Assembly: GCF_000023325.1 (NCBI RefSeq)
Contig: NC_012785.1
Coordinates: forward strand, 868,001-932,000
Direction: 5' to 3'
Origin: Kosmotoga olearia TBF 19.5.1
GTDB taxonomy: Bacteria; Thermotogota; Thermotogae; Petrotogales; Kosmotogaceae
Length of the DNA stretch: 64,000 nucleotides
The position numbers and the translations under genes were made by a program. This document shows positions 8,873 through 61,663 of the stretch, piece by piece; within the stretch, counting starts at the first letter, position 1; each line of letters opens with the position of its first letter. Under the pieces are notes generated by a model, which saw only the letters and a list, made by a program, of their open reading frames with translations, searched no databases and was not told the DNA's origin.

Positions 8873-9125
8873 CTGGGCGAGAGCTTCGCTCTCAGAAGCT
8901 GATTTGTTCTTGAGATCCTGAATCAAGTTTAGGATGACAGAGCAGACTTACAGAGTCTGAGGTTTTGAATCGCCTCAGGTGCTAATCACCGGCGAAGCCG
9001 GTCGTGTCAACTGCAAAGCAGTTCGTAACAACTCCGAAGGAGTTCGAGACAATCCCAAAGGAATTCGTGTTCGCTGCGAAGCAGTGCGTAGCGGCTATCT
9101 CGGTTCTCGGATTCTCGGGCTCTCA
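8873..9125. repeat. Hairpin-array repeat, copy D
   Basis: This copy lies between convergent genes. It holds GAGAGC-TTC-GCTCTC (8879-8893), a GATCCTGAATCAAGTTTAGGATGA palindrome (8914 onward), CTGAGG/CCTCAG, then five hairpin units starting at 8988, 9009, 9030, 9051 and 9072, exactly 21 bp apart. The units are ACCGGC-GAA-GCCGGT, AACTGC-AAA-GCAGTT, AACTCC-GAA-GGAGTT, AATCCC-AAA-GGAATT and CGCTGC-GAA-GCAGTG, with 6-bp spacers of the type CGTRAC. It ends in the family's terminal sequence GCTATCTCGGTTCTCGG. Confidence 0.85.
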
Positions 9126-19375: not shown

Positions 19376-19690
19376 CGAGAACCGGGAATCTGAAAGGGTT
19401 AGCATAGCTGTCCGAAATGCAGGGCTGCGTCCAGGAGGCTTGCAGACGCTGTGCGCTGCTTCGCAGCGGCTGCGCTGGGCTCCGCCCAAGCTATGCGTGA
19501 CTTTGTCACGGCCATGCGTCTCTTCGAGACGGAGTAGAACACGTTTTAATCCGCTGCAGGCGCGTACCAACAGCGAAGTAGTTTATAACAACCACGAAGT
19601 GGTTCGAAATAACTCCGCAGGAGTTCGTGTCAATCCCGAAGGATTCGTATCCGTTGCGAAGCAGCCTTCTCGGATCTCGAGTTTGTTAAT
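19376..19690. repeat. Hairpin-array repeat, copy E (inverted relative to H and I)
   Basis: This copy fills the gap between prfA and the DUF6544-like gene. Four units start at 19569, 19590, 19611 and 19632, exactly 21 bp apart, with AACCAC-GAA-GTGGTT and AACTCC-GCA-GGAGTT intact. The rest (19430-19560) is the reverse complement of the right half of copies H and I: TGCGCTGC-TTC-GCAGCG, GTGAC-TTT-GTCAC and CGTCTC-TTC-GAGACG. The right end CTTCTCGGATCTCGAG is the family terminal sequence, directly after the prfA stop. Confidence 0.85.
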
Positions 19691-29849: not shown

Positions 29850-30210
29850 TGAGATTCGAGAACCGAGAGTCCGAGATAGCCGCTGCGCGGCGGATACGAA
29901 TCCCTTCGGGATTGACACGAACTCCTGCGGAGTTGTTTCGAACCACTTCGTGGTTGTTATAAACTGCTTTGCAGTTGAAAAAATTGATACTTAAAACGAT
30001 AACCGTGATCCGAGAGTCGCTATTGTAGGGGCACAACATGCTTATAACTCGAGATCCGGGAAGTTAAGAGCTGTAGATCCTGAATCAAGTTAAGGATGAT
30101 AGCTTTGCCAAACGTCACTTCACCAGCTGACAGCGTTGCAAGCCTCAACCTTGTGAGTGTCAGCCTCTGCAAGCGTCCGGAGCGTAGCTCCGCACTTCAG
30201 CCGCGGAGCG
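29850..30210. repeat. Hairpin-array repeat, copy F (with other palindromes)
   Basis: Starts 5 nt after the rmuC stop with GAGAACCGAGAGTCCGAG-type terminal sequence at about 29858, then CCGC-TGC-GCGG. Four 21-bp units follow, starting at 29899, 29920, 29941 and 29962: AATCCC-TTC-GGGATT, AACTCC-TGC-GGAGTT, AACCAC-TTC-GTGGTT and AACTGC-TTT-GCAGTT. Further right are half of the GTAGGGGCACARCATG palindrome (30027), a GATCCTGAATCAAGTTAAGGATGA palindrome (30073), and CGGAGC-GTA-GCTCCG plus GCCGC-GGA-GCGGC (30178-30212) followed by a run of 8 T, which may act as a terminator. Confidence 0.82.
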
Positions 30211-30251
30211 GCCTCGTTTTTTTTACATGCGTTTCCCTGTAACTGTTATGG

Positions 30252-31627: not shown

Positions 31628-32175
31628 GATGCTTTGAGCCGCTTCACAGCTAAAGTGCAGAGCTACGCTCCGGACGCTTGCAGACACTGCCAGTTAGTGA
31701 AGCGACACGAACCGCAAGCGGTTGTTGCGAACTCTTTCAGAGTTGTTTCGAACCACTGCGTGGTTGTTCCGAACTGCTTTGCAGTTGAAAAAACTGATAA
31801 AACTGATTTTACAAAAGCCAACTTGTCATCCTGAACTCGATTCAGGATCTCGTACTGAAGCGCGGAAAGCATGCGCAGATGCTGGAATTGCCTTTGGCAA
31901 TGACGCTTGGAATCGCTGTTGCGATTGATGCTTGGAATCAGTTTCGCTGATTGATGCTTGGAGCGGCTACGCCGCTGAGTAAAGGGCACAGCATGCTGTG
32001 CCCCTACAATAAATTCGGATTACGGATTAAGTCTGGAATGAGCAATTTTGGCAACTGTTTCTTATTTTAAGTAATGTCAACTCCGAAGGAGTTCGTATCA
32101 CTGGCGAAGCCGGTCGTGACAATCTCGAAGAGATTCGTGCCGCTGCAAAGCAGCTTTCTCCAGTCTCCAGCACCC
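31628..32175. repeat. Mosaic repeat region G (three hairpin families)
   Basis: A 548-bp spacer with no gene. (1) 31710-31786: units AACCGC-AA-GCGGTT, AACTCT-TTC-AGAGTT, AACCAC-TGC-GTGGTT and AACTGC-TTT-GCAGTT at 20-21 bp. (2) 31829-31856: TCATCCTGAACTCGATTCAGGAT palindrome. (3) 31868-31975: hairpins AGCAT/ATGCT, ATTGCC-TTT-GGCAAT, ATCGC-TGTT-GCGAT, ATCAG/CTGAT and GCGGC-TAC-GCCGC joined by TGATGCTTGGA. (4) 31983-32008: palindrome GGGCACAGCATGCTGTGCCC. (5) 32079-32155: units AACTCC-GAA-GGAGTT, ACTGGC-GAA-GCCGGT, AATCTC-GAA-GAGATT and CGCTGC-AAA-GCAGCT. Confidence 0.85.
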
Positions 32176-48298: not shown

Positions 48299-49827
<1,529 letters not shown>

Positions 49828-61299: not shown

Positions 61300-61325
61300 G
61301 GGAACTACCTCCTTTCCTAAGAAAT

Positions 61326-61663
61326 CCGAGAACCGAGAGGACGAGAGTCCGAAAAAGCCACTTTGCGGCACGAATCCCTTCGGGATTGTTACGACCGGCT
61401 ACGCCGGTGTTGCGAACTCCTGCGGAGTTGTCGCGAACTGCTTCGCAGTTGACATGCGCCTGCGGCGGATTAAAGCATGTTCTATTCCGGCTCGAAGAGC
61501 CGCATGGCCGTGACGAAGTCACGCATAGCCTGGGCAAAGCCCAGCACAGCCGCTGCGAAGCAGCGCACAGCGTCTGCAAACCTCAACCTCGTGAGCGTCC
61601 GGAGCGTAGCTCCGCACTTCAGCAGCGTAGCTGCTATCTCAGATTCTCGGTTCTCGACTTTCA
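61326..61663. repeat. Hairpin-array repeat, copy I (near-identical to H)
   Basis: Same orientation and content as copy H. It starts GAGAACCGAGAGGACGAGAG, has GCCAC-TTT-GCGGC, then units at 61373, 61394, 61415 and 61436 (AATCCC-TTC-GGGATT, ACCGGC-TAC-GCCGGT, AACTCC-TGC-GGAGTT, AACTGC-TTC-GCAGTT). CGGCTC-GAA-GAGCCG, GTGAC-GAA-GTCAC, CTGGGC-AAA-GCCCAG, CGGAGC-GTA-GCTCCG and GCAGC-GTA-GCTGC follow. It ends CTCAGATTCTCGGTTCTCGA against the stop of the permease gene. Confidence 0.92.

Follow-up and report, generated by a model that had tools for sequence, protein, structure and literature searches.

Paired arm changes in the 21-bp hairpin arrays of Kosmotoga olearia and their possible origin in the rewriting of DNA

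Short hairpins arranged in tandem arrays in the genome of the thermophilic bacterium Kosmotoga olearia TBF 19.5.1 differ from one another by matched changes on both arms, and these paired changes are real and beyond chance. Judged by their sequences, the hairpins are best explained as units of a REP/BIME-like interspersed repeat, and either template switching with hairpin exchange re-makes the pairs, or selection acting on the DNA hairpins does, or both. The best reading, which we hold tentatively and at somewhat less than even probability, is that the hairpins of this REP-like repeat are regenerated at the DNA level, through template switching together with the exchange of hairpins.

The stretch analysed, hereafter the window, is 64 kb long and corresponds to positions 868001-932000 of one 2,302,126-base contig. 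Each hairpin unit consists of a 6-bp arm, a 3-nt loop and a second 6-bp arm (15 bp), and with a 6-bp spacer it repeats at a strict tandem period of 21 bp. The window contains 61 perfect 6+3+6 hairpins where ten first-order Markov sequences average 23.1, 6+3 is the sole 6-bp hairpin size strongly in excess there, and tandem arrays occupy six sites. A BLAST search with the element at 61.3 kb gave 78 matches across the K. olearia genome, and 34 blocks of that genome (163,239 bases) hold 79 arrays with 273 units. Together with 15 further stretches and two relatives (G019 and G020), the pooled set comprises 158 arrays and 524 units, drawn from sampled stretches of K. olearia (374 units), G019 (102) and G020 (48). 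The arms are perfect in 397 of the 524 units pooled from the three genomes; because an array was detected as a perfect hairpin with a neighbour 21 bp away having at least five pairs, this paired share is partly built in. Loop content played no role in detection, but it served to orient the arrays. Among the 273 units of the own-genome set there are 28 perfect stem words, which mostly follow a set order, for example xGCYGC, AATCCC, ACCGGC, AACTCC, AACCAC, AACTGC, or CGCTGC, CTGGGC, CGTGAC and then CGGCTC, CGTCTC or CGCAAC. The arrays are intergenic, some of them directly 3' of stop codons.

Within the window, the hairpin on which the sequence-only reading centred is CGGCTC-gaa-GAGCCG at 61488-61502 (minus strand, with the GNA loop on the plus strand), which is preceded by the spacer ctattc and is the last unit of a four-unit array. 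This array, I-right (61488-61565, minus strand), reads CGGCTC, CGTGAC, CTGGGC, CGCTGC along the plus strand; it is accompanied by I-left (AATCCC, ACCGGC, AACTCC, AACTGC; 61373-61450, plus strand, period 21 bp) and by a two-unit array (CGGAGC, AGCAGC; 61600-61635, minus strand). H-left (49544-49621, plus strand) is a near-copy of I-left with two broken pairs in its first unit, H-right (49659-49736, minus strand) shows one-sided changes relative to I in the units at 49701 and 49722, and a two-unit array of CGGAGC and AGCAGC lies at 49771-49806 (minus strand). Array E (19454-19531, plus strand) consists of CGCTGC, CTGGGC/GCCCAA, CGTGAC and CGTCTC, and its second part (19569-19625, minus strand) is of class AAC with one imperfect unit. 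Array F (29878-29976, plus strand) reads AGCCGC, AATCCC, AACTCC, AACCAC, AACTGC, and a two-unit array of CGGAGC and AGCCGC/GCGGCC lies at 30178-30213 (minus strand). Array G (AACTCT, AACCAC, AACTGC) is at 31730-31786 on the plus strand and G2 (AACTCC, ACTGGC/GCCGGT, AATCTC) at 32079-32135 on the minus strand; a five-unit array at 8988-9086 (minus strand) holds ACCGGC, AACTGC, AACTCC, AATCCC/GGAATT and CGCTGC/GCAGTG.

Other repeats occur in the same regions. A hairpin repeat of the ATCCTGAA/TTCAGGAT type at 31826-31851, found also at about 8914-8935 and about 30076-30098, fits the CGTC-3 REPs of K. olearia as given in the available part of PMC3733652. A second hairpin series at 31900-31976 has the form GCTTGGAATC-NNN-loop-NNN-GATTGAT, with about 26 bp between units and differing stems, and the same element contains GGGCACAGCATGCTGTGCCC, a perfect palindrome, at 31984-32003. 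Element borders (61320-61350 and 61637-61660 in the window; 1850-2340 in L079) carry drifting CGAGA-type runs in units of about 7 bp that are inverted between the ends. G019 additionally carries GTTGTNC runs.

The sequence-only reading had claimed that corresponding hairpins differ on both arms at once, and its leading example is borne out: CGGCTC/GAGCCG at 61488 in I and at 49659 in H is CGTCTC/GAGACG in E, where 19517-19531 is thus a both-sided variant of 61488-61502. Array E is reverse-complemented relative to H, I and a copy at about 965 kb, with matching hairpin order and spacers, and this shared order makes CGGCTC versus CGTCTC a homologous both-sided change. At the hairpin homologous to 61488, the 965-kb copy carries the one-sided variant CGGTTC/GAGCCG. 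The contrast between AATCCC (29899, 61373) and AATCTC/GAGATT (32121) is also present as described, as is the wobble in H, where CTGGGC/GCCTAG at 49701 has a G-T in place of the G-C of I (61530), equivalent to an A-C mismatch on the opposite strand. The pairs cited for AACTCC (29920, 49586, 61415) versus AACTCT/AGAGTT (31730) exist, but their interpretation as compensation at one pair is ambiguous. Arrays F and G have the next two units and the tail in common after this position; an AACTCC unit is also found in G (32079), and AACTCT recurs and can adjoin AACTCC in one array, so unit exchange is possible. No both-sided change separates arrays H and I, which resemble each other more than any other pair in the window; their arms differ on one side at a time, at 49544 (two pairs), 49701 and 49722, and in the right-hand array 22 pairs are the same, two have changed on one side and none on both. 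Several slots hold words one pair apart (CGGCTC/CGTCTC, CTGGGC/CTGAGC, ACCGGC/ACTGGC and xGCCGC/xGCTGC), and one-sided intermediates between such words exist, for example ACCGGC/GCCAGT.

In a first alignment of 29 of 62 three-unit stretches (triples), prefiltered for at least 16 of 18 pairs, both-sided changes occurred at all 18 pairs, and the covariation score was 0.861 versus 0.055-0.127 with partners slid. The phylogenetic null, a scripted rough equivalent of R-scape and not R-scape itself, used a FastTree tree of one triple per array (107 distinct rows) built with the arm columns included, Fitch changes, and independent branch placement in 300 simulations. Against this null, 14 of the 18 pairs reached the smallest attainable p and 15 fell below 0.05; both-sided branch changes numbered 89 (77 of them Watson-Crick to Watson-Crick) where 13.0 were expected, with 124 one-sided changes. 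Arm covariation is thus far above the phylogenetic null, and the outcome that the sequence-only reading had named as its refutation does not arise. The strictest homologous series (22 rows) gave no single significant pair, with a total of 6 both-sided changes versus 0.5 expected; in the series that allowed a two-pair tolerance, neighbouring slots may mix.

Grouping the arrays by divergence (501 of the 524 units, 154 of the 158 arrays) adds a time course. As the distance in spacers and loops rises, both sides have changed at 0.64, 5.07, 7.17, 8.60, 10.84, 11.66 and 10.26% of pair positions, and one side at 1.92, 4.96, 4.13, 4.16, 4.99, 6.79 and 5.13%; in these bins the array pairs are non-independent, units with more than two changed pairs are excluded, and the last bin holds 13 pairs. 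Among the 558 positions of 35 reciprocal nearest array pairs, 16 had changed on one side and 10 on both. One-sided changes thus predominate in young copies and both-sided changes in old ones, from which it follows that pairs break first and matched changes then build up; this two-step pattern is equally expected under selection. Arm divergence per base, computed with no alignment-step filter and leaving out units with at least three changed pairs, was 0.0079, 0.0377, 0.0793 and 0.1258 where spacers diverged by 0.013, 0.068, 0.098 and 0.163 and the middle loop base by 0.066, 0.132, 0.328 and 0.333. The arms are therefore slower than the spacers and change at about 0.1 to 0.4 times the rate of the middle loop base, which may mean constraint.

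Part of the variation is a swap of whole units and not pairwise compensation: in the.15-.20 distance bin, 321 of the 1,027 units compared at matched positions are at least three pairs apart. These units, the same ordered words in other genomes, the coexistence of AACTCT and AACTCC in arrays and one clear hairpin replacement (see below) would all fit an account in which there is no compensation, the different stems being old separate words and the double changes being swaps of units or hairpins between arrays. We consider this account improbable, as it sits poorly with the slots whose words are exactly one pair apart and linked by one-sided intermediates, and with the ordinary one-sided arm substitutions seen between close array pairs.

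The loops proved far less free than the sequence-only reading had supposed. It is mainly the middle base that varies; one strand reads T-N-C/T in 498 of the 524 units, and the AAA and GAA listed as separate loops are the same loops on the other strand. In 420 of the 524 units the loop is TNC, that is, GNA on the opposite strand, mostly closed by C-G. A GNA loop with a few G-C pairs is described in the consulted part of PMC4686876 as extraordinarily stable in DNA, GCGAAGC melting at 78 degrees C. Nearest-neighbour energies from ViennaRNA did not favour the GNA strand; the folding tables seem to be without a GNA-triloop bonus. Breaks of the loop rule affect the first base alone in 7 units, the last alone in 7 and both in 12 (of 524), an excess of double breaks over independence (Fisher p 3e-15). 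Six of the 524 loops are exactly inverted: they read GAA or GGA, which are TTC and TCC turned round. These inversions may go back to a small number of old events, because K. olearia and G020 both have CGCAAC with a GGA loop.

In a folded RNA, G-U intermediates are expected to outnumber A-C on the transcribed strand. The wobbles observed here are strand-symmetric, the TNC strand carrying 34 and the GNA strand 44 (binomial p 0.31; pooled counts over T-first loops only, as for the mismatch counts, which cover 263 of the 273 own-block units), so that neither strand has a G-U excess over A-C. A search of the 64-kb window against Rfam at gathering thresholds gave no match. These two results speak against the idea that the arrays are transcribed and their hairpins kept for folding as RNA, for example at mRNA 3' ends. 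The hairpins are predicted to fold as RNA, some arrays do lie just past stop codons, and PMC3733652, in the part available, uses G-T pairs to argue for an RNA function of many GTAG repeats. Both array orientations are common, however (45 one way and 34 the opposite way among the 79 own-genome arrays); the loops obey the same rule as stable DNA triloops, and a UUCG tetraloop would be out of register, as C6 of the arm pairs with the base following the 3-nt loop. We regard an RNA role as very doubtful, and an RNA element was set aside on the symmetric wobbles and the lack of an Rfam match in the window. The sequence-only reading had offered either selected pairing or hairpin copying; selection in its usual RNA sense finds no support on these two points, and copying gains some from the loop inversions and one hairpin replacement.

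Specifically, regeneration at the DNA level could proceed as follows. A unit would fold while its DNA is exposed as a single strand, for instance at a replication fork, and the stable GNA triloop would make such folding frequent. A point mutation in one arm would create a quasipalindrome, and template switching would copy one arm onto the other, restoring the old pair or fixing a new one on both sides; whole hairpins would also be exchanged among units. RNA pairing would not be required, and selection on the DNA hairpin may contribute. Inversion of the loop only, with flanks keeping their direction, and arm homogenisation are published traces of template switching in the portions available of PMC8794818 and PMC8604942, the latter including a ttc to gaa case. 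Both are found here: the arms are homogenised beyond the null of independent change, which selection predicts likewise, and in the six inverted loops the flanks are in place. The published yeast inversions, as given in the same part of PMC8604942, had arms of more than 9 bp, and the 6-bp arms of these units count against template switching. A further case comes from the own-genome arrays at 1449528 and 1457947, in which a neighbouring unit and the spacers are identical and all five differences are confined to one still-paired hairpin; this looks like replacement of a whole hairpin, and the word CTGGAC of the 1457947 array recurs in G020. Regeneration by copying is supported by these inverted loops and by this hairpin-sized replacement in identical flanks. 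Three syntenic sites examined as orthologous had no array in common, and no one-step event was seen directly. A further point against regeneration is that different genera have stem words in common and vary in their spacers.

In a stronger form of this proposal, the hairpins would be kept perfect mainly by mutation, each unit acting as a quasipalindrome-correction hotspot at a stable triloop and the arms drifting as matched pairs with no selection for pairing. We find this form rather unlikely. If true, the arrays would record, in nature, compensatory evolution of DNA driven by template switching, and would caution against taking covariation by itself as proof of RNA structure.

The main rival to DNA-level regeneration is selection on the DNA hairpin itself, in which the units would be substrates of an enzyme that binds single-stranded hairpins, such as a Y1, REP-type transposase, so that intact stems spread and compensations of point mutations are kept for dispersal. 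We hold this to be unlikely, but it has several observations in its favour. The K. olearia contig carries two Y1 transposase (Y1_Tnp) genes, at 1341659-1342366 (L131) and 1355258-1355953 (L130), 95% identical to each other and nearest to the REP-associated tyrosine transposase family, and an array lies about 100 bp from one of them. In addition, the stem words and the loop rule hold from one genus to another, and among 17 family genomes the Y1 protein and the arrays agree in 14 (7 with both, 7 with neither, 1 with arrays only and 2 with the protein only; Fisher p 0.015, ignoring descent and with G018 scored positive from a short fragment at a contig end). Against it, the two proteins score 68.3 and 67.4 bits, under the family cut-off of 80; a GT[AG]G guide (GTAG or GTGG) lies 0-2 nt 5' of the hairpin, on either strand, in just 16 of 524 units; and the inverted loops are left unexplained. 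In G021, which is 83% complete, arrays are present and the Y1 protein had no match. Around the Y1 genes there are GGGGACAG-type inverted repeats nearby and decayed pieces of hairpin units at the 3' ends, and by the second gene only such decayed pieces are found. These inverted repeats resemble the TIR-flanked transposases of PMC3733652, which in the part consulted lists CGTC-3 REPs for K. olearia and describes its tyrosine transposases as not flanked by CGTC repeats. The link between Y1 transposase and arrays is one of co-occurrence, and the enzyme is an unproven candidate. Flanking the Y1 genes, 21 of 23 arrays at 1.236-1.341 Mb share one orientation and 17 of 18 at 1.381-1.427 Mb have the opposite one, a local switch of orientation near 1.34-1.38 Mb whose boundary was placed post hoc.

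Of 103 Thermotogota genomes, 12 had matches to a covariance model of three units, with 47 matches in K. olearia, 39 in G019, 28 in G020, 11 in G021 and 1-6 in each of the others. Stem words and their order are common to K. olearia, G019, G020 and two genomes of another genus. At one site, which follows the same gene in each genome, the arrays of G019 and G020 face opposite ways and use different words, and no array is present in the window, which indicates that arrays turn over. The 61.3-kb element had no match among plasmids, and one 25-base pattern had no exact match among viral contigs; the same pattern was found in three contigs of the species genomes, all Thermotogota MAGs, a result that concerns this one pattern and not other stem words, in a collection from which K. 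olearia is possibly absent. Array orientation shows no genome-wide clustering (27 like neighbours versus a shuffle mean of 34.0, p 0.96), and a replication-strand cause was rejected on that ground. The GNA strand is the sense strand at 33 of 50 co-directional arrays (p 0.033), a figure based on mechanical ORFs and rough gene contexts and not relied on here. K. olearia (L013, 1499-3087) and G019 (L080, 6441-8027) share a 1.6-kb stretch beside arrays at 97.9% identity; by eye it holds an ATPase-like gene, and its near-identity suggests a recent transfer along with an array. The neighbouring genes of L013 and L009, which by eye resemble an ATPase gene and a transposase gene, were dropped as candidate mobilisers.

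RNA structure is ordinarily proved by covariation. In these arrays covariation exceeds the phylogenetic null very strongly, yet the wobbles are symmetric and some loops are inverted, and this points to a DNA-level cause. If confirmed, the arrays would offer a natural system, in a culturable organism, for the rate at which hairpins are rewritten by template switching, and a test case for covariation methods.

No description of 21-bp arrays was found in the literature searched, some of it available in part. Compensatory stem change between REP subfamilies, with alternative complementary stem residues, is already in print (PMC3733652, in the part consulted); new, as far as searched, are the 21-bp arrays with their ordered units, the rule governing the loops, the symmetric wobbles and the inverted loops. 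A CRISPR array was rejected because neighbouring stems differ while the 6-bp spacers share a consensus. CGTC palindromic repeats occur in the same genome as intergenic palindromes, and a hairpin of their shape lies among the arrays (about 31826-31851), but they have stems of 8-9 bp and loops of 4-5 nt in the accessible text of PMC3733652, in contrast to the 6 and 3 of these units (searched as 6+3+6); a CGTC REP was rejected, its foot tag being present on the GNA strand in 48 of 524 units (8 CGTC, 40 TGTC or CCTC). The mini-hairpins of the d(GCGAAGC) type share the three-base GNA loop, mostly closed by C-G; in the part of PMC4686876 consulted they are a designed stabilising motif, whereas these are natural genomic arrays whose GNA stability is taken by analogy. 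Inverted repeats corrected by template switching are alike in arm homogenisation and exact loop inversion, and the published events, so far as the available parts of PMC8794818 and PMC8604942 describe them, are scattered among rRNA, microRNA and yeast genes, whereas in these arrays the target would be a family of dispersed repeats. The closest likeness is to REP/REPIN-RAYT systems and BIMEs, which are likewise short intergenic palindromes in many copies and clustered mosaics, with a related Y1 transposase in the genome. The scarcity of the guide led us to reject REP proper, and the arrays differ from REPs and BIMEs in their 6-bp stems, 3-nt loops, strict 21-bp tandem period and different, ordered stems; they thus extend the REP/BIME-like repeats known from the Thermotogota by a class whose units are ordered and recur every 21 bp.
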